Shown here piece by piece: positions 558 through 42,841 of a stretch of 53,114 nucleotides of DNA (positions are counted from its first letter, which is position 1; each line of letters opens with the position of its first letter). The notes under the pieces were generated by a model. It saw only the letters and a program-made list of their open reading frames with translations, was not told where the DNA came from and ran no database searches. The stretch spans positions 1 to 53,114 of the forward strand of contig NZ_WIVE01000027.1 of NCBI RefSeq assembly GCF_009601025.1, read 5' to 3'. The stretch is from Roseospira navarrensis. GTDB taxonomy: Bacteria; Pseudomonadota; Alphaproteobacteria; Rhodospirillales; Rhodospirillaceae. Both the position numbers and the translations under genes were made by a program.

Positions 558-592
558 GGATTTGGCACAAATCGGCAACGATTTGGCACACC
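558..592. repeat. left-end transposase-binding repeats (attL side)
   Basis: Two copies of GATTTGGCACA stand 22-23 bp apart. The inner one, with its flank (571-592), is the inverse complement of a right-end block (42706-42727) at 20 of 22 positions. In Mu, the A protein binds several such sites within about 180 bp of each end, so these are the probable L1/L2 sites. Confidence 0.75.
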
Positions 593-29310: not shown

Positions 29311-29694
29311 TCAATCGCGGCCGAACAGATCGGCCTGCCGGTCGTTGCCGGCGTTCAGCGTCATGCGCACCCAGCGTTCGGTGCAGCCCAGTTCGCGGGC
29401 GATGGCGCGGTGTGAAAGGCCGCGCCGCTTCAGGGCCCCAATCCGGGCCTTGACACTGCGGGCCAGGGCATTGCGTGGCACGTCGATGTGGCCGCCGCCG
29501 TATTCCCGGCACAGGGCCCCCCATGCGTCCGCGCCCAGGATCGCGCGCCACGGGTGGGCCTCATGCGGCGCGTGGGGCACGTAGCACTTTTCCTGGCCGC
29601 CCACGACCTGGGCCAGCCGCAGGGCCGCCGGCACGCCCACGACCTGGGCGATCTCCTCCAGCCGGGCGGAGACGATGGGCGGGGCGTCCGTCAT
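29311..29694 (-). CDS. Mor/C-type late transcription activator
   Basis: 127 residues. N-terminal dimerisation helices, the beta-strand loop YGGGHIDVPR (about 65-74) and a C-terminal HTH in RGLSHRAIARELGCTERWVR (about 91-110) reproduce the Mor/C fold. In Mu, Mor switches on C, and C the late operons; here only one family member is seen, and it is the last gene of the early operon just before a late promoter candidate, so it may serve both steps. ATG overlaps the GemA stop by 4 bases. Confidence 0.92.
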   Translation of the reverse strand: MTDAPPIVSARLEEIAQVVGVPAALRLAQVVGGQEKCYVPHAPHEAHPWRAILGADAWGALCREYGGGHIDVPRNALARSVKARIGALKRRGLSHRAIARELGCTERWVRMTLNAGNDRQADLFGRD

Positions 29695-30407
29695 CGCCGG
29701 TCCTTCAGTGCCCGGCTCAGCGGGGCCTCGATCCCGGCCGCGTCCATGGCGTCGCGGAGCATGCGGCCGCGCTCGGCCAGCAGCCGGTCCAGGGCGCCGT
29801 CGGGCTCGGACAGCATCGCGCCCGCTGGCGCGTCCACCGCCACACCCAACAGGCCCAGCCGCCGCGCCTGTTCCACGGCCACGCGGACCTTGGGATGCGA
29901 TCCGAGGTTCTGGCCGCCGGCATAAATCGGCCTATCCGGCCGCTCCAGATCGGGCGCCACCCGGCGCAGCCAGCCGCGCAGGCCCCGGATCAGGCGATCC
30001 AGGTGTTCGCCGTCCAGCCATTCCAGCCGCGCCACACCCTGGCCGGACTGACCTCGCGCGCCCTTGGTCATGCGCGCCGCATAGGCTTCCAGGGCACTCT
30101 CAGAGGCGTCCGAGACCTCCCCCAGCACCCACAGATCCAGCCACAGCGCCCGGGCCTTCGCGAGCCCCGGCGCGCCGTCGGCGACCGGCCGGGGCCGGCG
30201 GGTCTGCTGGCGCGGGCGATGGCCGTTCAGGTGGTCGAGCACCGCCATGAGCTGCTGCGCCGTCATGTCGGCGCAGCTCTCCGCGCCGCCGTGCGTGCGC
30301 AGCATGGCGCGATAGGCCTCGCCCTCCAGGCCGCGCGCCCGGGCGGCCACATGGACGGCGCGGATCATACCGGCGCGATCGGGCGCGCGGCGACGGGCAG
30401 CGGTCAT
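29691..30407 (-). CDS. gemA: GemA-like regulatory protein (DUF1018, Mu gp16)
   Basis: 238 residues. AGMIRAVHVAARARGLEGEA, YRAMLRTHGGAESCADMTAQ and QLMAVLDHLNG (about 13-62) form the DUF1018/GemA signature. In Mu, GemA modulates host gene expression and DNA supercoiling. The C-terminal 100 residues (APDLERPDRPIYAGGQNLGS...) are a phage-specific extension with helical charge pattern. Coupled on both sides by 4-base overlaps. Confidence 0.88.
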   Translation of the reverse strand: MTAARRRAPDRAGMIRAVHVAARARGLEGEAYRAMLRTHGGAESCADMTAQQLMAVLDHLNGHRPRQQTRRPRPVADGAPGLAKARALWLDLWVLGEVSDASESALEAYAARMTKGARGQSGQGVARLEWLDGEHLDRLIRGLRGWLRRVAPDLERPDRPIYAGGQNLGSHPKVRVAVEQARRLGLLGVAVDAPAGAMLSEPDGALDRLLAERGRMLRDAMDAAGIEAPLSRALKDRR

Positions 30408-30661
30408 GACTCGGCCCTCCCCTCGACAGATACCGTGTGCGTCGCGGTGACGGTCAGATCCACGCCGCCGTACCGACGCCGCCAGACCAGCCGCACGGTC
30501 ACGCGGCCATCGCTGCGGCGGTAGGGCCTCACGGTGGGCGTCAGGCGATAGCCGCTGGCGCTCAGGCGATCGTGCAGGCCCGGGGCGAGCGCCTCGGCAA
30601 GGGGCGCGGCATCCTGCTCCGGCAGGTGCCGGCCGCACTTCGGGATCCGACGGCGGCTCAT
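30404..30661 (-). CDS. hypothetical basic protein
   Basis: 85 residues, strongly basic (MSRRRIPKCGRHLPEQDAA, RPYRRSDGRVTVRLVWRRRY). The C-terminal half predicts beta strands. No family recognised. Between the methyltransferase and GemA genes with ATGA overlaps on both sides, so it is made with them. The charge would suit nucleic acid binding, but no fold can be named. Confidence 0.75.
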   Translation of the reverse strand: MSRRRIPKCGRHLPEQDAAPLAEALAPGLHDRLSASGYRLTPTVRPYRRSDGRVTVRLVWRRRYGGVDLTVTATHTVSVEGRAES

Positions 30662-31296
30662 GACACCCACCCGTCTTTCCAGAGGGTGTGGACCGCCTCC
30701 AGCCCCCGGTGCCCATGCTCCCAGACGTACCAGGCATGGGCCGTCGTCGCGCCGCTGGTGCGCTGCTCGGGCGGGATGTCAAAGCGCCAGCACGTGGCCC
30801 GATCGCCACAGAGCCAGATGCGCGCCGGCGGATGCGCGGCCCACCAGGCGCGGCGATCGCGGCTCTCGCGCCAAGGGAAGCGCTGGAAGCACAGGATCTT
30901 GCGGGCGCCGAGGTCAGCGGCCCTGTCCACGAAGTCCGTGGCGTGCGAAAAAGGCGGGTTCATGAACACGCTGAACGGCTCGCCCGACTCGGCGTCCGGC
31001 GACTCCGCCATGCGCAGGAAGTCCTTCTGCGCGACCTGATCGCGATACCCCCAGTCATGCAGATCGGTGCTGACCACGGCATACCCGGCCGCCTGGGCCG
31101 CCTCGCTCAGAACCCCGGTGCCGCAGCAGGGATCCCACACCCGGGGCGTCAGCAGCTCCACCTCAAGGATGCGCTGCGCCGCCCAGGCTGGCGTCTCGAA
31201 GCACTCGGCCGCGCGGGCCTGCTCCTCCAACGACGCATACTCCGGCGCCGGCTCGACACCCTCCAGGTGCCGCCACAGCATCTCCTGCGCGGTCAT
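30658..31296 (-). CDS. orphan N6-adenine DNA methyltransferase
   Basis: 212 residues. Motif I (SAM binding) is DPCCGTG (55-61), preceded by the FETPAWAAQRIL segment typical of phage adenine methylases; motif IV is NPPF (113-116), which indicates N6-adenine methylation. The order I then IV is the gamma-like class. No restriction enzyme gene is nearby, so the enzyme most likely marks phage DNA against host restriction, analogous in purpose to Mu Mom. It lies in the early operon, not late as mom does. Confidence 0.88.
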   Translation of the reverse strand: MTAQEMLWRHLEGVEPAPEYASLEEQARAAECFETPAWAAQRILEVELLTPRVWDPCCGTGVLSEAAQAAGYAVVSTDLHDWGYRDQVAQKDFLRMAESPDAESGEPFSVFMNPPFSHATDFVDRAADLGARKILCFQRFPWRESRDRRAWWAAHPPARIWLCGDRATCWRFDIPPEQRTSGATTAHAWYVWEHGHRGLEAVHTLWKDGWVS

Positions 31297-31517
31297 GACT
31301 CGCGGCCCTCCCAGCGGCGGCACGCCGGCCGGGGGACGTAGACCGCGCCGAGGCGATCCAGCGACAGGCCGGTCTGGCTGGCCACCACGGCACAGACCGA
31401 GGTCGCGGGGCGGGTGGCCGGGCGCGGGCCGGGCGACGGCACGCAGTGCCGGCAGGAGCGGCAGGTCTCTCCGGACGGGCCGCTGCCCGCCACGTTGGCA
31501 TAGGTGGGTCGGCTCAT
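31293..31517 (-). CDS. small cysteine-rich, probable zinc-binding protein
   Basis: 74 residues with five cysteines: GETCRSCRHCVP (about 17-28), SVCAVVA and PACRRWE near the end. This spacing occurs in small proteins of alphaproteobacterial phages and suggests one zinc site. Function unknown. Joined to both neighbours by ATGA overlaps. Confidence 0.75.
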   Translation of the reverse strand: MSRPTYANVAGSGPSGETCRSCRHCVPSPGPRPATRPATSVCAVVASQTGLSLDRLGAVYVPRPACRRWEGRES

Positions 31518-31971: not shown

Positions 31972-32276
31972 CACCGCCCTCCATCCAGGTCCGCATCCGC
32001 ATCCGCGATCATCCGGGCCGAGGTCCGCACATGGCTCGCCCGGACACTCAGCACCGCGCCGGTGACCGCATCGGCGGCCGGGCTGCCGATGCGCATGTCC
32101 GTGGCGGCCAGCTCCGCCAGCCACAGCTCGGCCAGAGCGAGGGAGATGGCGCGCATCTCCTCCGGTGCAGGCTCCGGCAGGTGCTCGCGCATGGCCTCCC
32201 GGACGGCGCGCCGCGCCGCCTCCTGGGTGCTGGCGATCGCCAGATCGAGCGGGCTCCATTCGGTCTGCTGTGTCAT
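31971..32276 (-). CDS. hypothetical protein
   Basis: 101 residues, MTQQTEWSPLDLAIASTQEA at the N-terminus and mostly helical, with acidic end DADADLDGG. Coupled (ATGA) to the DnaA domain I protein upstream, so possibly part of the same replication-related set. No family recognised. Confidence 0.72.
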   Translation of the reverse strand: MTQQTEWSPLDLAIASTQEAARRAVREAMREHLPEPAPEEMRAISLALAELWLAELAATDMRIGSPAADAVTGAVLSVRASHVRTSARMIADADADLDGGR

Positions 32277-32803
32277 GGCATCACCTCGATATCCGGCATG
32301 CGGCCGAGGGCGCGGCGGATCACGTGATCCAGGCGCGTAGACAGCCACTCGGCATGGAAGGGGGACGGCGCGCGGATCTCGACCGCCCCGCCGTCCGGGC
32401 CGATCTCGATCCGGCACGGCCGGATCCAGCGGTCATAGGTCGAGCGGTCCATGCCGGCGGCCACGAACATCGGCCACCAGACGTCATCGGGCTCGGCCAG
32501 CGGCGGAGCCTTGGGCTCGGCCGGGTCCGCGAACACCTCGTCCTCGAACCGGCGCTGCCGCAGCCACGTCTTGGCGTGCGCGATGTACATCACGTCCAGT
32601 CGGCGCTCGCCGCACTGGTCCGCGTACCGGCGCGCGGCGCGCGCCAGGAAATCCGGATCAACCCCGCCAGCCGGGCCGGCGTCGGCCGTCAGAGCGGCGA
32701 ACACCTCACGCGCGGCGGCCTTGCCCTCGCGCCTCGGGTACGCGCTCCAGAACGCCTCCCACGCGGCTTCCTGCCGCCGGGTCAGCCGGGCCGGGGGCTT
32801 CAA
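32273..32803 (-). CDS. replication protein ending in a DnaA domain I-like module
   Basis: 176 residues. Residues 8-85 have the pattern of phage replication/helicase-loader N-termini (AFWSAYPRREGKAAAREVFA at 17-36; YIAHAKTWLRQRRF). Residues 106-166 resemble DnaA domain I: DDVWWPMFVAAGMDRSTYDR, WIRPCRIEI, then VEIRAPSPFHAEWLSTRLDH. Domain I of DnaA binds DnaB helicase and DiaA-type partners. A separate DnaA domain IV protein is made two kilobases upstream in the same operon. It would be expected to recruit host helicase to transposition intermediates. Confidence 0.7.
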   Translation of the reverse strand: MKPPARLTRRQEAAWEAFWSAYPRREGKAAAREVFAALTADAGPAGGVDPDFLARAARRYADQCGERRLDVMYIAHAKTWLRQRRFEDEVFADPAEPKAPPLAEPDDVWWPMFVAAGMDRSTYDRWIRPCRIEIGPDGGAVEIRAPSPFHAEWLSTRLDHVIRRALGRMPDIEVMP

Positions 32804-33120
32804 AACGGGTTCTCCTCGCCCGCTGACAGCGCCTCATAGGACGCGAAGTGGAGCGCGTCGCTGATATCCGAGGCCGTGTCAGGGGACAGGCTCAGGGCCA
32901 GCGCGTCGCCCAGGGTCAGAGACACGCCGCCGTCGGTGGCCCGCACCTCCCACCGCCCCGGCCGGGCGATCAGAGAGACCGCCATCTCGTGACCTCGGGA
33001 CACGGCGTTGCCGTGCCGGTAGCGCGTCGCGCTCGGCGCCGGCGGGCAGTCCACGGCATCGCTCGCCCAGGCGAGCATGCCCGCCAGCCAGCGGCGGGCC
33101 AGGGTCCATCGGGTGGTCAT
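32800..33120 (-). CDS. hypothetical protein
   Basis: 106 residues. The N-terminal 45 residues have low complexity (LARRWLAGMLAWASDAVDCP); the rest (MAVSLIARPGRWEVRATDGG... LTLGDALALSLSPDTA) looks like a small alpha/beta domain. An internal ATG at residue 46 would give the domain alone. ATGA overlaps on both sides. No family recognised. Confidence 0.7.
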   Translation of the reverse strand: MTTRWTLARRWLAGMLAWASDAVDCPPAPSATRYRHGNAVSRGHEMAVSLIARPGRWEVRATDGGVSLTLGDALALSLSPDTASDISDALHFASYEALSAGEENPF

Positions 33121-33548
33121 GATGCACCTCGCTCGAAGAAGTCCCGGGGCAGGCTCAGCACCAGGAACGGCGCCGGCCCAGTGGCCGACATCTTGATGAC
33201 CTCATGCGTGACGCGGACGGATCGGTAGGTCCGGCCGGAGAACGCCTCGGGCAGAGCGCCGGTGTGGATCTTGAACACGTCCAGGGCCTTGTTCGCCCGG
33301 ACCGGCCACGTCGGACCGTCGTTGCGCTGCGGCCAGATCTTGACCTTGCCGGCATCGCGATCCGTGCCCCACAGGATGAGGACCGGCGTGCCCTCGGACC
33401 ACTTCAGCGCCACGGCCACATCCTGACCCATGGCGATGGTCAGCACGTGGCCACGCCCGGACGGCCCCACGCGCACGCTGACGGTCACGTCCTTCGCGCC
33501 GACGGGCGGTGGCTTGGCCTGATGCTTCAGAGCGATCACCTCAAACAT
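33117..33548 (-). CDS. hypothetical beta-rich protein
   Basis: 143 residues, with alternating hydrophobic strands (VTVSVRVGPSGRGHVLTIAM, TPVLILWGTD, GKVKIWPQ, PFLVLSLPRDFF). No cysteine, no HTH. It resembles small beta-sandwich proteins, but there is no family signature. Its N-terminus overlaps the upstream gene by 8 bases. Confidence 0.72.
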   Translation of the reverse strand: MFEVIALKHQAKPPPVGAKDVTVSVRVGPSGRGHVLTIAMGQDVAVALKWSEGTPVLILWGTDRDAGKVKIWPQRNDGPTWPVRANKALDVFKIHTGALPEAFSGRTYRSVRVTHEVIKMSATGPAPFLVLSLPRDFFERGAS

Positions 33549-33951
33549 GGCTCACCCCCCGGGCCTGCTCGGCCCGATCCATGGCGGCGATGGCGGCGAT
33601 CAGCAGGGCCGCGGCCTGGATGGCCTGGTCGCGCGCGTGCTGACGGTCGGGGCCTCGCGGCACTCGCACGAGCCCCAGGTGCGCACTCTCAGCCCGGGAC
33701 CGGGCCAGGGTCAGCAGGCGGACCGCGCCGCTGGCGTCGTCTTGCTCGGCCGTGTAGCCAAGGTCCACGACCTGGCGCGCCCGCTCGACCATCACGGCCG
33801 CCAGGCCGGGCGATGTGTCGTACAGCCCGCAGAGGGTTTCGGCCGCGCCGCCGTCGCTTAGGTCGGCCCAGGCGGCGAGGACGCAGGACGCCTCGTACGA
33901 GATAATCTCGACGGACTCCTCATGCATCGTCACAGGGATCATGCTGCTCAT
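33541..33951 (-). CDS. phage protein of the ERxRQ/GYTxExD type
   Basis: 136 residues. Contains VERARQVVDLGYTAEQDDAS (about 55-74), followed by helices ending AAALLIAAIAAMDRAEQA. A segment of the form ERxRQ...G(Y/W)TxExDD followed by paired helices is widespread in small phage early proteins of unknown role. The Gam-like gene lies upstream with a 13-bp gap containing GGGAGGG as ribosome site. Confidence 0.72.
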   Translation of the reverse strand: MSSMIPVTMHEESVEIISYEASCVLAAWADLSDGGAAETLCGLYDTSPGLAAVMVERARQVVDLGYTAEQDDASGAVRLLTLARSRAESAHLGLVRVPRGPDRQHARDQAIQAAALLIAAIAAMDRAEQARGVSHV

Positions 33952-33964
33952 CGTCAGGCCCTCC

Positions 33965-34489
33965 CTATGCCGCCGTCTCGATGTCGGCGGCGTCCCGCAA
34001 CAGGGCGTCCACCATCTTGTCGATCTCAGTGTCGGTGACGCGCACCACCACCTCGTCGTCGGCCTCCACGACCGTGACGCCGATGCGGCGCAGCTCTGCG
34101 GCGCTCATCTGGTTGAGCGCACCCTTGACGGGCGTTTCGGAGACCTTGACCAGGGTCTCGACCTGATCCGGAAAGTGCTTGCGGATCAGGTCGCAGACGC
34201 GGGCCGCGTCCGTGAAGTCCAGCTTCCCTTTGCCTTTGGCGAACCCGACCTTGACGCCGTGCAGCGTCAGGGTCCGGGGCTTCTGGAACAGGTCGGGCGC
34301 ATCGCCAACGGCGGCGGCCAGCCGGTCCCGCGCGTTGGACGCGCCGGACACCAGCCGGCGGATGCGAGCGATCCGCTGGCGACGGGCGCGCGCCATCTCC
34401 TCCTCCAGCGCGCGGACCTCATCCGCGAGCTTGGCGTGGGTCTCGCTGTAGGTCTTCGCGAGGCCCTCGATATCGCCGAGTGTCGGCAT
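33965..34489 (-). CDS. Gam-like host nuclease inhibitor
   Basis: 174 residues, the same length as Mu Gam. The N-terminal third is a coiled coil (THAKLADEVRALEEEMARAR, about 17-36). The central LTLHGVKVGFAKGKGKLDF (about 74-92) and LVKVSETPVKGALNQMSAAE, LRRIGVTVVE (about 113-142) fit the Gam pattern (GkvgfRkgk..., K...E.vnKeal, LkkiGv). Gam binds DNA ends like Ku and shields them from RecBCD/AddAB. Position in the early operon agrees. Confidence 0.65.
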   Translation of the reverse strand: MPTLGDIEGLAKTYSETHAKLADEVRALEEEMARARRQRIARIRRLVSGASNARDRLAAAVGDAPDLFQKPRTLTLHGVKVGFAKGKGKLDFTDAARVCDLIRKHFPDQVETLVKVSETPVKGALNQMSAAELRRIGVTVVEADDEVVVRVTDTEIDKMVDALLRDAADIETAA

Positions 34490-34490
34490 C

Positions 34491-34604
34491 TCAAATCCTC
34501 CTAAACAGGCGTTGAAACAGGGTTCGAACGGCGCTCCAGCGCCCCCTCCGGGGCGCCGCGACCAGGGTGCCGGCGACGATCAGCCGGCCGATGTCGGGGG
34601 TCAT
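34491..34604 (-). CDS. 37-residue basic peptide
   Basis: [20 protein letters not shown] then [17 protein letters not shown]. It is basic and amphipathic in its second half. The ATG overlaps the stop of the DnaA domain IV gene by four bases, and the stop is one base before the Gam-like ATG, so the operon has no room for anything else here. Function unknown. Confidence 0.6.
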
Positions 34605-34921
34605 GGCGGGGGCTCCGGCGGAGGCGCGCTCGTCAGGCGCGCTCGCACGGCGTCCATGCGCGCGGCGATCGCCGGATCCCGGGCGGCCCGCTCCGCCGTG
34701 CGCCGGACGGCGTGCAACACGGTGGTGTGGTCTCGGTCGAAGGCCCGGCCGATGACCGGCAGGCTGGCCATGGTCAGGTCGCGCGCCAGCGTCATCGCGG
34801 CCTGGCGCGGGACGGCCAGGTTCTGGGCGCGCCGGTCGGCCAGCAGATCCCGCCGGGTGACGCCCCACGCCTCGGCGGTGGCGTCGATGATGGCGGCGAT
34901 GGAGGGCGCGGTGCGGGTCAT
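34601..34921 (-). CDS. stand-alone DnaA domain IV (DnaA-box binding) protein
   Basis: 106 residues. [20 protein letters not shown] (38-57) and the signature [11 protein letters not shown] (63-73) are almost the textbook DnaA domain IV, including the loop that reads the DnaA box. No ATPase domain is present. The protein could bind DnaA boxes of host or phage DNA without ATP and either compete with host DnaA or mark phage DNA. It is in the same operon as a protein with a DnaA domain I-like end. Coupled (ATGA) on both sides. Confidence 0.88.
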
Positions 34922-35858: not shown

Positions 35859-36260
35859 CTATCGATCCTCCTCTCGAAACACGGGGCACGCCTGACAGGC
35901 GCGGCGCATGCGCATGCGGTGGCTGGAGGTGGCGGCGGCATCCGCGCGGGCCTTGGCCTGCCAGTCCCAGCAGGCATCGGCGGTGATCGCCTCGCCCAGG
36001 CCGGGGCACTCCCACGCATCGGCGATCAGCGCGGCGGAGACGGCCGCCAGCACGGCGTCCAGGTCGCCGGGGTAGGCCCGTCCGAGCACCTGATTGATGA
36101 CGGTCGGCGAGTACGATCCGCGCCCGTCGCGGCGCCGGATCCCGGCCGCGACGGAGGCCTGGCTCTGGCGATCACACGCCTCGGCGAGGGCGCGCACGGC
36201 CGGGGGCATGTCGTCGCCCCAGGCGGCGCGGGCGCGGGTGAGGGCGCGGCCTTCAGCCAT
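35859..36260 (-). CDS. HTH protein similar to the MuB N-terminal domain
   Basis: 133 residues. Residues about 30-75 (SVAAGIRRRDGRGSYSPTVI, NQVLGRAYPGDLDAVLAAVS) read as an HTH of the type at the N-terminus of MuB, where ...S...IxxVLxGxYxGD... is typical. MuB in this phage lacks that domain, so this may be the separated partner. Two cysteine pairs follow near the end (RRACQACPVF). It overlaps the upstream gene by 8 bases. Confidence 0.65.
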   Translation of the reverse strand: MAEGRALTRARAAWGDDMPPAVRALAEACDRQSQASVAAGIRRRDGRGSYSPTVINQVLGRAYPGDLDAVLAAVSAALIADAWECPGLGEAITADACWDWQAKARADAAATSSHRMRMRRACQACPVFREEDR

Positions 36261-36918
36261 GACCACCCGCCCGGGCCGGAGACACATCGGCCTCGGCCTC
36301 GCCCATGAACTCGCCCCGATTGGGGTCCCAGACAGCGTGCGACACGCGCGCGATCATCGGCGCCGCCGGGCCGGTGTTCATGCCGCTCCGCAGGGCATAT
36401 CGGGTGGGGGCGCCGGTGCCGGGCCGATGCCCCGGCCGGCCCTCCTCGACGACGCGCAGATATCCGGCGCGGCACAGGTGGCCCAGATAACAGGCCGCCG
36501 TGGTGCGGTGGATGCCCCGCACATCCGTGCTGGCCATCACGGCCAGATCATCGGCCGTCACACCATCACGGCCGATCATGCGCAGGGTGCGCCACATGGC
36601 CTCCTGGCCCGTCGGCGGCACCTCGGAGCCGTCGCGGCGCAGGCGCGGCGCCTCCGGCCCGGCATCGCGCAGCAGGACATAGATACGCCCCCGGTCCGGC
36701 GTGGCGCCGGGCTGGCAATCCACGTACGCGGCCGCGCACAGGCGGCGGACATACTCCCGCACGGTGCTCTGGTCCGGCACGCCGGTGTCCTGCCAGATCT
36801 GGCGGATGCTCCAGTACTGGCCACGCGGCACGGCCCGGATGGCCTCCCAGATACCCTGGTGACCCCGGCGGACGCGCACCCGCAGCGCGGCCTCAACGTG
36901 ACAGGGATACCGGCTCAT
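36253..36918 (-). CDS. winged-helix DNA-binding protein
   Basis: 221 residues with two probable winged helices: WEAIRAVPRGQYWSIRQIWQ with DTGVPDQSTVREYVRRLCAA (about 24-63), and LRMIGRDGVTADDLAVMAST with TTAACYLGHLCRAGYLRVVE (about 112-157). Encoded immediately after MuB, ATGA-coupled, as in B3-type phages where similar proteins of unknown target occur. Confidence 0.75.
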   Translation of the reverse strand: MSRYPCHVEAALRVRVRRGHQGIWEAIRAVPRGQYWSIRQIWQDTGVPDQSTVREYVRRLCAAAYVDCQPGATPDRGRIYVLLRDAGPEAPRLRRDGSEVPPTGQEAMWRTLRMIGRDGVTADDLAVMASTDVRGIHRTTAACYLGHLCRAGYLRVVEEGRPGHRPGTGAPTRYALRSGMNTGPAAPMIARVSHAVWDPNRGEFMGEAEADVSPARAGGHG

Positions 36919-37688
36919 CGGCGGCCACCCCGAGCGGGCACCCGCTCGCCGGCCCGCATGGACGGCACCTGACCGGTGTACAGGTCCCGGTCACCCCATG
37001 TGGTCAGACCGACCACGTCCCACCCCTGGGCCAGGGCCTCGGTCGCCACCCGGTGCAGGTTCACCACCGCCCGCCGGATGCGCCCGGCCGAGGCCGTCGT
37101 GACCCGCTCGATCAAGTCCGCCGCGATGACCAAGTCCGGGTAGTACAGCCGGGCCACGATAGCGACGTCCTCGGGGGTCACCGGCTCCGCTGCCACCCAC
37201 GACAGCACGCGGTTGTGCGTGCGTTCCGACCGCGCCGCGATCATCTGGGGCAGGGCTTCCTCGCCCACCAGGATGATCGGCACGCCGGCCCGGTCCGCGA
37301 TCTCGCGCACGGTCTCCAGGTAGCCCCGGCGCACCACGTGGTCCGCCTCGTCGATGATGAGGGGCCGGTCCTGGCTCTCGCAGGCCAGGATGATCCGGTC
37401 CACCACATCGGCCGCCCGGCCGTGCCCATCCACCCCGACCTCGACGGCGACGGCCGCCAGGAACCGGGCGCGGGTCCAGCTCTCGCCGCACTCGACATAG
37501 CGGGCGCGGGTCTTGTTCGCCGCGTGCACGGCCGACCAGGTCTTGCCGTAGCCGCTGTGGCCGTAGAACACGCCCAGGCCGGGCAGATGCGCGGGCCGCT
37601 GGATGCAGGCGTCCAGCAGGGCGCCGAACCGCAGGACATTGCCGAGCGGCGCCGTGGTGGCGTTGACTGAGGGCTGTCGATCCGTCAT
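36915..37688 (-). CDS. transposition target-DNA ATPase (MuB-like)
   Basis: 257 residues. AAA+ ATPase with Walker A GHSGYGKT (43-50), Walker B PLIIDEADH (109-117) and sensor strand PIILVGEE (137-144). MuB forms filaments on target DNA, stimulates the transposase and gives target immunity. Compared with MuB (312 residues), it lacks the N-terminal HTH; a separate HTH protein is encoded two genes away. The transposase gene is 63 bp upstream. Confidence 0.94.
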   Translation of the reverse strand: MTDRQPSVNATTAPLGNVLRFGALLDACIQRPAHLPGLGVFYGHSGYGKTWSAVHAANKTRARYVECGESWTRARFLAAVAVEVGVDGHGRAADVVDRIILACESQDRPLIIDEADHVVRRGYLETVREIADRAGVPIILVGEEALPQMIAARSERTHNRVLSWVAAEPVTPEDVAIVARLYYPDLVIAADLIERVTTASAGRIRRAVVNLHRVATEALAQGWDVVGLTTWGDRDLYTGQVPSMRAGERVPARGGRR

Positions 37689-37751: not shown

Positions 37752-39863
37752 TTAGGCGGACACCTGTCCGCCGCTCAGGCCGGACAGGAAGATGTCCGCG
37801 CCCCATTCCTCCAGCGCCGCCTCGTGGCTCCGGTATTCCGGCGTCTGGCTGTAGCCCCGCGCCCAGCGCAGGGCCTCGGCGTCCACCGGCCGGCCGGCCG
37901 CGTGCGCCTCCAGCGTCTGGTGGGCACGCCACCAGCGCTCTTTCGGGGTCTCGTCGCGCTTCGGCGGCGCGGCCATCTCGGCCGCCAGACGCTCTTTCGC
38001 GGCCGCCTCATCCGCCGTCAGGGCGCGCGGCGCCGGGGGCGCCGGCTCCGCCAGCAGCACTGGGGCCGCGCTCTCGTCGCGCAGGGCCATCGCGTCCTGC
38101 GCCGTGGCGCGGCGGGCGCGAGCCTCCTGCACGTCGTCGTCGTTGAAGTACGGGCGGACATTCCCGTTCTCGGCCGCTTCGCACACCAGACGCCCGTCCA
38201 GGTCCCTGATCCACACCCGGCCCATGTCGCGCGGGTCGTACTCCACGCGGACCTCGCGCCCGTGCATGTCCAGATCGTCGAGGGTCTGGCTGAAATACTT
38301 CCGCCCCCCGAGCTGCACCCACGCCCGACGCACCGTGCGGATCTCATGCGGCCGGAACAGATCGCGCGCCTCGGCCTCGCTCAGGCGCGGCGGCACCACG
38401 CCCAGATCATCCGCCGACGGCAGCAGCGCGACCCACTGTTCCGCCGGGGTGCGATGCCGCATCTTGCCCGTCTCCGGATCGCGGATCCGGGGCAACGACG
38501 AATGCGGGCGGTTGTTGTATCGCGCCCGGCAGTCCTCGACCCAGGTCAGGAACGCGTCCCACGGCTGGATGATCGGGCTGTGGCCGTAGGTTTTGATGTC
38601 CTTTCGGCCGGCTTTAAACGCCAGTTGACGGGCTTCCTGGTCCATGTCGTGCCCGACATAGGCGGTCGCCTGCCGCGCCGGCGCGATCAGGCCGGTCTGG
38701 TGAAAGCGCTCGATGACGCCCCGGGCCTGGGAGTTGTAGGGGATGCTGTGGCGGATGGTGATGCCCAGTCGCGCCATCAGGCCGGTGACCGGGTCGTTGT
38801 GGGCGCGGTTCTTGAAGCCGCACCCGTTGTCCACGTACCAGATCGCCGGGATCCCGGCGCCGACCACCGCCGTCCGCAGCGCCGCCGCGACCAGCCATTC
38901 GGCCTCGTCCATCCAGGCCGACCAGCCGACCCAGGCGCGGGTGGAGACATCCAGCACGCTGATGATCTCCGGCCGCTTCGGGCGTGACGGGTCCAGCGGA
39001 TGCGCCACTTCCCGGTCGTGCCGGTGGCCGTCGCTGGTGTAGACGTCGCCCGGCAACAGGTGATCGAACGACCGCAGCGCCAACGCCCGGAACCGCTTCA
39101 GGTCGCGCGGCCCGACCCGGCCGCGATGTTTGGCGATCGCGCCCAGGCTGCCGATGAACCGCCGCGCCTGGTCATACGACGGCGCCGCCACCGGCGCGTC
39201 CTGCGGCCACCACTCCAGGCACGCGGCGAGGCTCGGCTTCTGCGGCCGCGCATACAGCTTCATCAGGGGGAACGCCCACGCCGGCGCCTCGCGCGGTGTC
39301 TCCTCGGCCGGGGCCAGGGCGGTCACATCACCCGCCGCCCGCGCTGCCAGCCATCGCTGCACACTGCGCAGGCTCAGCACGCGGGACCCCGACGTGCCCC
39401 GCCGGGCGTTCGCCGCCGGCACCATGCGCGCCAGATGCGCCGGCATCTGCCCGGCCCGCGCCTGATCCACCAGGGCCTGCGCTGCCTGCCGCTCCGACAG
39501 CCCGTACTCCAGCCGCAGCCGGTCCACCTCGCCGCACAGGGCCGCCCGCGCATCCATGCACGACCGCGTGGCGTCGCGCATGTCCGCCGGATCGCGCTGC
39601 CCGCGTTCGGCCGCCACCACCGCCGGAGGCGGCGCCTCGACCGCCATCTCCCGCCGCGCCAGCGCCGCCCGCGCGGCCGGCGGCAGCGCCGAGACCGGAT
39701 ACTCGCGCCCCCCGCCGCGCCCCTGCCGGGGGCGGGAGGGCCAGGACTGGCGGGACGCCGCCGCATTGATGCCCTGCTTGGTGCCGGGGATATCCGGCAG
39801 CCGCATCGCCGCGAGTTCGGCGGCGGTGTACCAGCGATCGGGGTTGGGGAGGGCGGAGGGCAT
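37752..39863 (-). CDS. DDE transposase (MuA-like)
   Basis: 703 residues. N-terminal Mu-type winged helix (RWYTAAELAAMRLPDIPGTK, 10-29), an end-binding region (about 80-190), then a DDE catalytic core with D278 (YTSDGHRH), D345 (YVDNGCGF) and E385 (RGVIERFH). The beta-barrel domain follows (AWVQLGGRKYFSQTLDDLDM, about 514-533). The C-terminal 120 residues are charged, corresponding to the MuB-contact domain. All catalytic residues are present, so the prophage may still be able to move. ATG overlaps the CII-like stop (TGATG). Confidence 0.96.
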   Translation of the reverse strand: MPSALPNPDRWYTAAELAAMRLPDIPGTKQGINAAASRQSWPSRPRQGRGGGREYPVSALPPAARAALARREMAVEAPPPAVVAAERGQRDPADMRDATRSCMDARAALCGEVDRLRLEYGLSERQAAQALVDQARAGQMPAHLARMVPAANARRGTSGSRVLSLRSVQRWLAARAAGDVTALAPAEETPREAPAWAFPLMKLYARPQKPSLAACLEWWPQDAPVAAPSYDQARRFIGSLGAIAKHRGRVGPRDLKRFRALALRSFDHLLPGDVYTSDGHRHDREVAHPLDPSRPKRPEIISVLDVSTRAWVGWSAWMDEAEWLVAAALRTAVVGAGIPAIWYVDNGCGFKNRAHNDPVTGLMARLGITIRHSIPYNSQARGVIERFHQTGLIAPARQATAYVGHDMDQEARQLAFKAGRKDIKTYGHSPIIQPWDAFLTWVEDCRARYNNRPHSSLPRIRDPETGKMRHRTPAEQWVALLPSADDLGVVPPRLSEAEARDLFRPHEIRTVRRAWVQLGGRKYFSQTLDDLDMHGREVRVEYDPRDMGRVWIRDLDGRLVCEAAENGNVRPYFNDDDVQEARARRATAQDAMALRDESAAPVLLAEPAPPAPRALTADEAAAKERLAAEMAAPPKRDETPKERWWRAHQTLEAHAAGRPVDAEALRWARGYSQTPEYRSHEAALEEWGADIFLSGLSGGQVSA

Positions 39864-40342
39864 CACCGATGCCCTCCGCGCCGACGACGGCGCCGGGCCT
39901 CGATCCGCCGCTCCAGCCCGTCCAGGTACTCGGCCACCTCGTCGCGCCGGTCCAGGTCGATGATCTCCTCGATCGCCTCCTGGTGCCGGGCATCGACCAC
40001 CATGTGGTGGAAGGGCTCCGCCAGCATCTGCAGCAGCCGGACATCCCCGGTCGCATGAACCAGCGCCATCAGGCGCAGCACGCTGATGGTGTGGTCCTCG
40101 CGCGCCTCGCTGGCATAGCCGTCCAGCGCCGTCTTCGGCACCGGCTCGCCCAGGTACGCGCCCATCGCCGCCGCGATCTCGTCGCGCGGGGTGTCGCAAT
40201 CGCGCAGCGCCGCCGCCACCGCCCGGCTGACCTGCGCCCGCAGGCTCGCCGCGCGCACCTGATCGGGGGCGAACGTCTGCACCACCTCCGGCGGCGCCCA
40301 CGCCAGCAGATCGGCCGTGCGCGTATCGCCCTTCATCTTCAC
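39863..40342 (-). CDS. probable CII (CP76)-like HTH regulator
   Basis: 159 residues from a GTG with GGGAGGG seven bases upstream; an ATG two codons later is possible. VSRAVAAALRDCDTPRDEIA (about 39-58), LDGYASEAREDHTISVLRLM and ALVHATGDVRLLQMLAEPFH (about 101-120) follow the layout of phage CII/CP76-type regulators. It stands first in the transposition segment of the early operon. The C-terminus is very basic (RRIEARRRRRRGGHR). Family call moderate. Confidence 0.6.
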   Translation of the reverse strand: MKMKGDTRTADLLAWAPPEVVQTFAPDQVRAASLRAQVSRAVAAALRDCDTPRDEIAAAMGAYLGEPVPKTALDGYASEAREDHTISVLRLMALVHATGDVRLLQMLAEPFHHMVVDARHQEAIEEIIDLDRRDEVAEYLDGLERRIEARRRRRRGGHR

Positions 40343-42001: not shown

Positions 42002-42610
42002 ATGTCGGACTCGTCAACGCTTTCCGGATCCGCCAGAGATCTGGAAAGCCGCATATCCCAGGTTCTGGACCTGTATCCGGACCGTGCATCTGCGGTTCGA
42101 GCGTCCGGGAAATCCCCCGACATGCTGATCGCGTATGTGCGGGGAACCAGTCGGGCGCCGTTCGATGCGCTGGCCGGGCTCGCCGCTGGCGTCGGCGTTA
42201 GCCTGGATTGGCTCGCCACCGGCGAGGGCCCCATGCGCCGCGACCGGGGCGCGGCCGAGGCGGCCCAATCCCAGTCTCAGGGCCAGACGCACGCCCAGCC
42301 CACGGCGGTGCCGTCCCCGCCTGTGCCAGAGGCCGCGACCAGCGCCGGCCAGCCTCTCGACGGCGCCCTTTTAGGCCTGTGTTTTGAGGGGATTAAACGG
42401 ACATACAGGGACGTGAACGCCCGCATCGACGACCGCTCGGCGGGCGTCATGGCGGCCCGGCTGTACGACGACGTCGTGGCCGCGACGGCCGGCGAGCCCG
42501 ATCCCGAGTCGGCCCGCCGCATCGCCCTGCGCCTGGCGCTCCAGCAGCTGCGCCGCGACCTTCAGACCGCGCCGACGGCCGCCGCCGATGCTGGGAAACA
42601 CTCGGCCTGA
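42002..42610 (+). CDS. HTH repressor of the lysogenic state (Mu c analogue)
   Basis: 202 residues. N-terminal XRE-type HTH (SRISQVLDLYPDRASAVRAS, GVSLDWLATGEGPM, about 16-78), with the SxxWLxTGEGPM segment common in phage repressors. A proline/glutamine linker (about 84-118) leads to a helical C-terminal part, probably for oligomerisation. There is no LexA-type peptidase domain, so induction would not be by RecA-stimulated self-cleavage. It faces the early operon across 157 bp. GGAAA lies nine bases before the ATG. Confidence 0.88.
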   Translation: MSDSSTLSGSARDLESRISQVLDLYPDRASAVRASGKSPDMLIAYVRGTSRAPFDALAGLAAGVGVSLDWLATGEGPMRRDRGAAEAAQSQSQGQTHAQPTAVPSPPVPEAATSAGQPLDGALLGLCFEGIKRTYRDVNARIDDRSAGVMAARLYDDVVAATAGEPDPESARRIALRLALQQLRRDLQTAPTAAADAGKHSA

Positions 42611-42705: not shown

Positions 42706-42841
42706 GGTGTGCCAAATCCCTGCCGATCGGCGATCAGTCCTGATCGATCCGTGCCAAATCGCATTTCGGCCGTCGGGCCAAATTTTTTTGGTATCCCAAT
42801 ATCTTCCGCCAAATCCCGCCATATCCCGGGTGTGCCATACC
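42706..42841. repeat. right-end transposase-binding repeats (attR side)
   Basis: Elements resembling GTGCCAAATC occur at 42706-42718, 42751-42760, 42776-42784 and 42808-42817, with a diverged GGTGTGCCATACC at 42829-42841. The first is the inverse match of the inner left-end element at 20 of 22 positions. The outermost is about 15 bp inside the proposed terminus. The right end has more sites than the left within the same distance, as in Mu. Confidence 0.75.

Follow-up and report, generated by a model that had tools for sequence, protein, structure and literature searches.

A Mu-like prophage in Roseospira navarrensis encodes, within one early operon, a protein in which a replisome-organizer module is joined to DnaA domain I, and a separate protein that consists of DnaA domain IV. 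The prophage lies on a 53,114-nucleotide stretch of contig NZ_WIVE01000027.1 (the window; contig C117 of genome G000, which measures 4.43 Mb; other genomes, contigs and loci are likewise referred to by our G, C and L numbers). The domains and the kind of phage are both known; what is new is how the domains are arranged. Judging from its anatomy, the fusion protein probably helps the phage to place the host helicase on its own replication forks, and the domain IV protein more likely works on its own, as a competitor at the host origin or as a transcription factor. An earlier note on this DNA had proposed that the two proteins could form an ATP-independent helicase recruitment pair or sabotage host initiation, an interpretation that is partly supported by our analysis.

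The fusion gene (32273-32803, minus strand) encodes 176 amino acids (aa) from a TTG start; four relatives have an ATG at or near the same place. The end of the protein had been likened to DnaA domain I, and this likeness held up in sequence and in predicted structure. Residues 119-166 match DnaA_N (PF11638) with an E-value of 1.3e-5 and 25.2 bits at a cut-off of 24.6, which is marginal if taken alone; six of the eight members of the fusion family pass this cut-off, the two below it being those of G207 (16.6 bits) and G580 (18.0 bits). A profile-profile comparison (hhalign) of the C-terminal part with 10 chromosomal DnaA domain I sequences gave a probability of 96% (E-value 4.4e-9), and the N-terminal half, compared with the same set as a control, gave 0.4%. 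The AlphaFold2 models reached a mean predicted local distance difference test score (pLDDT) of 91.0 for the whole fusion and 91.8 for the C-terminal domain alone. With this domain as query, the first three PDB ranks in Foldseek were all DnaA domain I (4tps_D, 4tps_B and 2e0g, with E-values of 1.5e-3, 2.5e-3 and 1.8e-2 and probabilities of 1.00, 1.00 and 0.98), and the predicted model together with these matches indicates a KH-like fold. The first helix of domain I is poorly matched, since the PF11638 match begins only at profile position 13-18. All eight fusion proteins keep the Phe and Trp that correspond to Phe46 and Trp25 of E. coli DnaA, an equivalence assigned from the E. coli sequence; the Phe is Phe149 in the window protein. 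Neither the fusion nor the domain IV protein has a Pfam match to an AAA+ domain, and neither is thus a full DnaA; the DciA family (PF05258) was not among the Pfam matches of the fusion at E <= 0.1.

The N-terminal half matches phrog_270 (phage replication initiation) at 5e-14, in agreement with the replication-like N-terminus claimed for it before. A predicted-structure search of phage proteins with this YPR module gave 12 matches at E <= 0.001, several of them named 'replisome organizer' or RepA-like, with loose superpositions. When viral contigs were searched with the family alignment, 28 loci were obtained, three of which belong to the family itself (L034, L035 and L177, a copy of G209); the other 25 carry the module without domain I, as judged by a custom profile. 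We scanned 24 of these 25 with Pfam and PHROGs (L181 was omitted as a near copy of L182, and some of the others are near copies too). All 24 match both phrog_9474 and phrog_270, none matches DnaA_N at E <= 0.01, and four contain HTH_36. In 22 of them the YPR motif begins between residues 141 and 258, and in the remaining two at residues 76 and 91. In five members of the fusion family, by comparison, it starts at residue 22-23 (22 in the window protein) with domain I after it, so that the module is that of a replisome organizer and the domain expected in front of it is absent. The arrangement thus appears unusual, the module usually being C-terminal behind another domain, and the fusion reads as a replisome organizer minus its front domain, plus a DnaA domain I at the back. 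Among INPHARED phages, 18 records matched the fusion, none over more than 50% of the protein, and PLSDB plasmids gave no match. A limited literature search, mostly outside subscription journals, returned no report of a fusion between the YPR module and domain I, and no mention of DnaA in the few papers on Mu-like prophages that it covered.

We found eight distinct proteins of this form: those of the window, G207, G209, G211, L035 and G580, and two in G484 (G484a and G484b). L034, an IMG/VR contig, shares 10 kb of identical sequence with the G207 prophage, and the two were counted once. A search of 317 genomes of the order yielded six matches, four of full length (G000, G207, G209 and G211) and two to the module only (G136 and G017). 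Among 385 genomes of the class, 10 matched: full-length proteins are encoded in G000, G484 (two copies) and G580, four genomes have module matches in frames of 294-333 codons, and G439, G479 and G625 matched through the domain I of DnaA itself, as their frames also contain domain IV. A search of genome contigs returned three loci (Roseospira visakhapatnamensis, a Rhodospira and a Rhodospirillum metagenome-assembled genome), none of them new to the set. The carriers span at least two alphaproteobacterial families, and all eight proteins are encoded within Mu-like early regions. MuA is present on the locus in six of eight cases; the two G484 contigs end before MuA and carry DUF3164, GemA- and Mor-like genes. 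GemA and Mor flank the fusion gene in G484 and G580, and in L035 and G211 the fusion gene follows directly on DUF3164. The combination of YPR module and domain I was seen only in Mu-like contexts.

Domain I at the end of a mobile-element initiator is not unique to the window phage. A PF11638 search of 28 genomes also found, on contig C57 of G046, a 382-aa protein with a C-terminal DnaA domain I, which scored 23.0 bits in the Pfam scan (cut-off 24.6) and 26.6, above the cut-off, in the genome search. Its front is HTH_36-like (0.0035, under the cut-off), and the initiator-like gene (L143, 1438-2586) stands beside a ParA-type gene (445-1131). No match to MuA, MuB or the YPR module was present on the 9 kb around it, and the protein had no match in PLSDB plasmids. 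This plasmid-like initiator is a precedent for the recruiter reading. Two weaker candidates were not confirmed by the custom profile, namely an initiator-like 335-codon frame on C180 of G278 (21.7 bits to DnaA_N, under the cut-off) and a 76-codon frame on C28 of G259 (21.0 bits).

The explanation that we favour, and to which we would give an even chance, is that the fusion is an origin-less replisome organizer that delivers host DnaB to transposition forks, with the domain IV protein as an independent early factor. The C-terminal domain I would bind the host replicative helicase DnaB, and the YPR module would act as its link to the replisome or single-stranded DNA. The usual front domain, taken here as the origin binder, is absent from the fusion and could be dispensable, because strand transfer by MuA itself makes forks and no origin is needed. 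The fusion would then hand DnaB to these forks, in addition to PriA/DciA of the host or in their stead; the domain IV protein, for its part, would read DNA that resembles DnaA boxes, with the host genome as the most likely place, and would not be needed as a partner. We infer helicase binding, the role at forks and the DNA target of domain IV from the anatomy: it is the helicase-binding domain, the replisome module, the missing front domain and the Mu-like context that lead to the recruiter reading, and the fact that the fusion was seen only in Mu-like contexts fits helicase recruitment at strand-transfer forks. The host encodes PriA (665 bits) and DciA (66.8 bits), and its genome has no match to DnaT. 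Caulobacter is described as having no DnaC-family protein, DnaB being loaded there by DciA, whose central domain is reported to resemble the DnaA N-terminal domain (PMC9825169). Helicase recruitment as such had been proposed in the earlier note; the fusion to a replication module and its occurrence in Mu-like contexts speak for it, and the part that found no support is the working pair. Such a fusion would make it directly testable how helicase is delivered to strand-transfer forks in transposing phages other than Mu, above all in hosts without DnaC/DnaT, and it would be an example of DnaA domain I at work in another protein.

Several observations weigh against this explanation. The fusion was found in just three of the 385 class genomes, the window's own included, and domain I occurs in just six of 92 MuA loci (see below), so most Mu-like phages do without it. 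Foldseek gave no PDB match at E <= 0.001 with either the whole fusion or the domain alone, and with the whole fusion as query DnaA was absent among the 50 matches listed, DciA being at rank 4 with an E-value of 0.61. E. coli DnaA domain I is reported to touch DnaB through Glu21 and Phe46, and also to bind DiaA, Hda and YfdR (PMC5448010); a helicase partner for the fusion is thus not forced, because domain I has these other partners. The Glu21 equivalent is not kept in the fusion family (T, A, K, D or S), and the DnaA of the host likewise has none (A). Finally, the joining of the replisome or of single-stranded DNA is a putative role of the YPR module.

The second protein (106 aa, ATG start) had been described as DnaA domain IV without an AAA+ domain, which proved correct: residues 9-74 match Bac_DnaA_C (PF08299) at 2.3e-22 and 79.2 bits, with a cut-off of 31.5, and a match of 3.8e-14 was obtained with 1j1v, the structure of E. 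coli domain IV. PF08299 has two matches in the host genome, the other being in a 518-codon frame on another contig that is taken for the chromosomal dnaA. The DnaA-box contact residues R399, P423, D433, H434, T435 and H439 (listed in PMC7561715) are all kept in the window protein, as they are in 24 of 24 chromosomal domain IVs; eleven other phage rows (from ten phages, since L267 duplicates G134) keep between two and six of the six. In a tree with long branches, 24 chromosomal and 13 phage rows are split (97/99), and the window, G207, G205 and G209 group together (88/91). This split led us to reject a recent capture of domain IV from the host.

DnaA boxes at the phage ends, for which a scan had been suggested, were not found: the exact sequence TTATNCACA is missing from the window, which has three sites with one mismatch against 4.5 expected, and we rejected the idea that domain IV reads boxes there. 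None of 12 phage loci with domain IV contains an exact TTATNCACA. This absence says little, because none was present in six loci without domain IV or in five chromosomal dnaA loci either. The host genome contains ten exact boxes, no excess over the 14 of a reversed-pattern control. Two of the ten are 278 bases apart (L313, 2162 and 2440; G000:C197), beside and inside one open reading frame (ORF) that by eye resembles a ribonucleotide reductase. For TGATCCACA, 15 sites with at most one mismatch were counted in the window against 8.6 expected, a number reached in two of 100 shuffles; they are scattered, and the single exact one lies inside MuA (38207).

Two readings of the domain IV protein are tentative and about equal in rank. 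It might be a phage transcription factor that works like GafY or GafA. GafY is described as a homologue of DnaA domain IV that, together with IHF, binds and activates the promoters of gene transfer agents and that makes contact with the sigma factor RpoD (PMC9632790, PMC11150451), and GafA has a DnaA-IV-like N-terminus and is reported from roseophages (PMC6363796). The variable number of box contacts among phage domain IVs is as expected for drifting targets. However, the window protein scores 82.5 bits to DnaA (TIGR00362) and only 22.8 to NF004688, far under the cut-off of 136, and we rejected its membership in the GafY family. We infer that NF004688 represents GafY because, among 14 control genomes, it matches only Caulobacter vibrioides; it had no match at E <= 1e-10 in 60 genomes searched. 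All six box contacts are kept in the window protein, whereas the GafY element as described in PMC11150451 contains ACTATG, which is not a DnaA box. The phage moreover already has a Mor-like gene. GafY was formerly called HdaB and was reportedly proposed for replication control by Frandi and Collier in 2020.

The position of the domain IV gene bears on the other reading. Where the early genes can be read, their order is steady: MuA, MuB, phrog_2030, phrog_2119, a variable slot, and then DUF3164 or Gam. In 11 of 13 non-redundant domain IV loci (G199 included, which is without MuA on its locus), 93-401 bases separate domain IV from the DUF3164/Gam match that follows; DUF3164/Gam was not found in the other two. 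The slot is otherwise variable (66 slots examined), and in G259 and its near copy L281 it is occupied by a domain I of about 83 aa that stands alone (PF11638, 25.9 bits). Coordinates for a stand-alone domain I in a Mu-like prophage are L078 14121-14552 and L281 4831-5262. The gene in Gam's place, which we take to be DUF3164, is found upstream of the fusion gene at L043 10452-11348, L044 10575-11192 and L204 14704-15318; this type and Gam seem to replace each other (58 and 11 of 103 Mu-like loci, copies included). The 88 ORF clusters that recur in Mu-like early regions were judged by eye and without family search; none except domain IV was recognised as a replication gene.

Under the other reading, these domains (domain IV, and in one relative a lone domain I) would be pieces of DnaA that block initiation in the host and so leave replication capacity to the phage. 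Domain IV would cover the boxes at oriC, and domain I would occupy DnaB or the regulators of DnaA. The shared slot is in line with this, as are the six intact box contacts of the window protein. With no exact box in the window and ten in the host, canonical targets would be host ones. On the other hand, these ten are no more than the control yields, the box contacts are degenerate in several other phages, and the replication module of the fusion would be superfluous for pure sabotage. A somewhat less probable scenario, for some Mu-like phages of alphaproteobacteria, joins both activities: a phage-made recruiter would load DnaB at strand-transfer forks without the host restart path, and loose DnaA domains (IV or I) in the Gam/DUF3164 slot would quiet the host origin. 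If true, DnaA would have been dismantled and its parts put to separate uses.

The notion of a working pair, a split initiator in which domain IV tethers DNA and the fusion recruits DnaB, was not borne out by the distribution of the genes, and we consider it unlikely. We examined 103 loci, 102 of them with MuA and 92 of these left after removal of near copies at 97% DNA identity; they were drawn from the 80 top-ranking of 344 viral MuA relatives and from genomes of the order (contig C69 of G209 and one of two G145 pieces were omitted). Both genes are present in three, domain IV only in nine, domain I only in three and neither in 77 (one-sided Fisher p = 0.028). This value is inflated, as the window, G209, G211 and G205 entered the sample through one of the genes; without them the counts are 1, 8, 2 and 77, and p = 0.28. 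The absences of either gene are partly due to truncation, because some contigs end shortly after MuA: in 12 of the 80 viral loci less than 4 kb follows it, and three of the nine loci with domain IV only (L072, L229 and L260) have about 5 kb or less downstream. Among loci with at least 6.5 kb downstream, the counts are 3, 6, 3 and 60. The related phages do include three that have both genes in one operon (the window, G207 and G209, the last with a very different transposase), but most carriers have only one. Domain IV is missing in five of the eight fusion phages; at the two G484 loci and in G580, which are from another family, it was absent from the 17-20 kb fetched, which cover the slot before DUF3164. 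No exact boxes in the window are available for such an initiator, and the two proteins are not an obligate pair. The pair had been supposed to work without ATP; a MuB-type ATPase is encoded in the same operon. Finally, the fusion could have come from a theta-replicating element and be carried along passively as a relic, without a part in transposition, as the mosaic nature of phage early regions, its presence beside a divergent MuA in G209 and G211 and the G046 initiator might suggest; this is quite improbable, since eight phages, from at least two families of alphaproteobacteria, carry it as an open and recognisable frame and in Mu-like contexts throughout.

The surroundings of both genes in the window are those of a Mu-like early region (Table 1), as the earlier note had assumed: MuA, MuB, Gam and GemA are all present on the same strand, and the Mor match is weak and below the cut-off. 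On the minus strand the order is MuA, MuB, phrog_2030, phrog_2119, domain IV, Gam, fusion, GemA and the Mor-like gene, with unnamed genes interspersed. The repeat GCCAAATC occurs five times in the 53 kb against 0.94 expected, a number reached in none of 100 shuffles. Its copies are inverted with respect to each other (two minus at 559-587, three plus at 42711-42815) and are found nowhere else in the window, so they are likely transposase sites at both prophage ends. A target-site duplication was looked for at the prophage ends and not found. A tRNA-Thr lies at 215-290 and is followed by an ORF (327-677, minus) that runs into the right end of the prophage near 558. The middle of this ORF, judged by eye from a motif, resembles the end of a tyrosine integrase, and the phage may have landed in the integrase gene of an island. 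The early region also contains a possible methyltransferase (30658-31323; PF13489 0.0023, under the cut-off) with relatives in the G207 and G211 prophages.

Table 1. Annotated features of the Mu-like prophage, in window coordinates
Feature	Position	Strand	Basis
MuA-like transposase (start approximate)	37752..39881	-	phrog_310 2.7e-144; PF09299
MuB-like AAA ATPase, same operon as fusion and domain IV	36915..37688	-	phrog_296 1.2e-48
phrog_2030 transcriptional regulator, conserved early gene	36253..36918	-	phrog_2030 match
phrog_2119, conserved early gene opening the variable slot	35859..36287	-	phrog_2119 match
Stand-alone DnaA domain IV, 106 aa	34601..34921	-	PF08299
Mu Gam-like end-protection gene, directly downstream of domain IV	33965..34489	-	PF07352 7.4e-7
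Fusion, 176 aa: replisome-organizer (YPR) module, then DnaA domain I	32273..32803	-	Pfam, PHROGs, model
YPR module, N-terminal here	32528..32782	-	like phrog_270/9474/9327
DnaA domain I, KH-like fold	32276..32479	-	PF11638, profile-profile, fold
GemA homologue (start approximate)	29691..30254	-	PF06252 3.3e-15
Mor-like activator	29311..29694	-	PF08765 5.8e-4, under cut-off
Repressor-like gene	42002..42610	+	PF07022 0.0022, under cut-off
Right-end repeats, two GCCAAATC (predicted sites)	559..587	-	exact pattern search
Left-end repeats, three exact GCCAAATC and one variant (predicted sites)	42711..42827	+	pattern search

Among known systems, the phage replisome organizers (phrog_270, phrog_9474 and phrog_9327) share the YPR module with the fusion, by sequence and by predicted fold; the fusion differs in that its module is N-terminal, the front domain is absent, a DnaA domain I has been added and the context is Mu-like. 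The G046 initiator, a replication protein of a mobile element, likewise ends in domain I, but has a helix-turn-helix front, no YPR match and a ParA-type neighbour. With DnaA domain I itself the fusion has in common the sequence, the KH-like fold and the helicase-contact Phe, whereas this copy stands outside DnaA and without AAA+, does not keep the Glu21 contact and matches poorly in the first helix. DciA (DUF721), a helicase operator with a DnaA-domain-I-like fold, gave a non-significant fold match (rank 4 with the whole fusion, rank 36 with the domain), and the fusion has no PF05258 match.

The domain IV protein contains the whole of DnaA domain IV with its six box contacts, but as a stand-alone unit without AAA+ or domain I. 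In phage-derived systems of alphaproteobacteria, GafY/HdaB and GafA also have a DnaA-IV-like domain, alone or at the N-terminus, although the window sequence is far under the NF004688 cut-off. To our knowledge, bacteriophage Mu itself has neither the fusion nor the domain IV protein. Its early region shares MuA, MuB, Gam, GemA and Mor-type genes with the window prophage, and Mu relies on PriA restart by the host.

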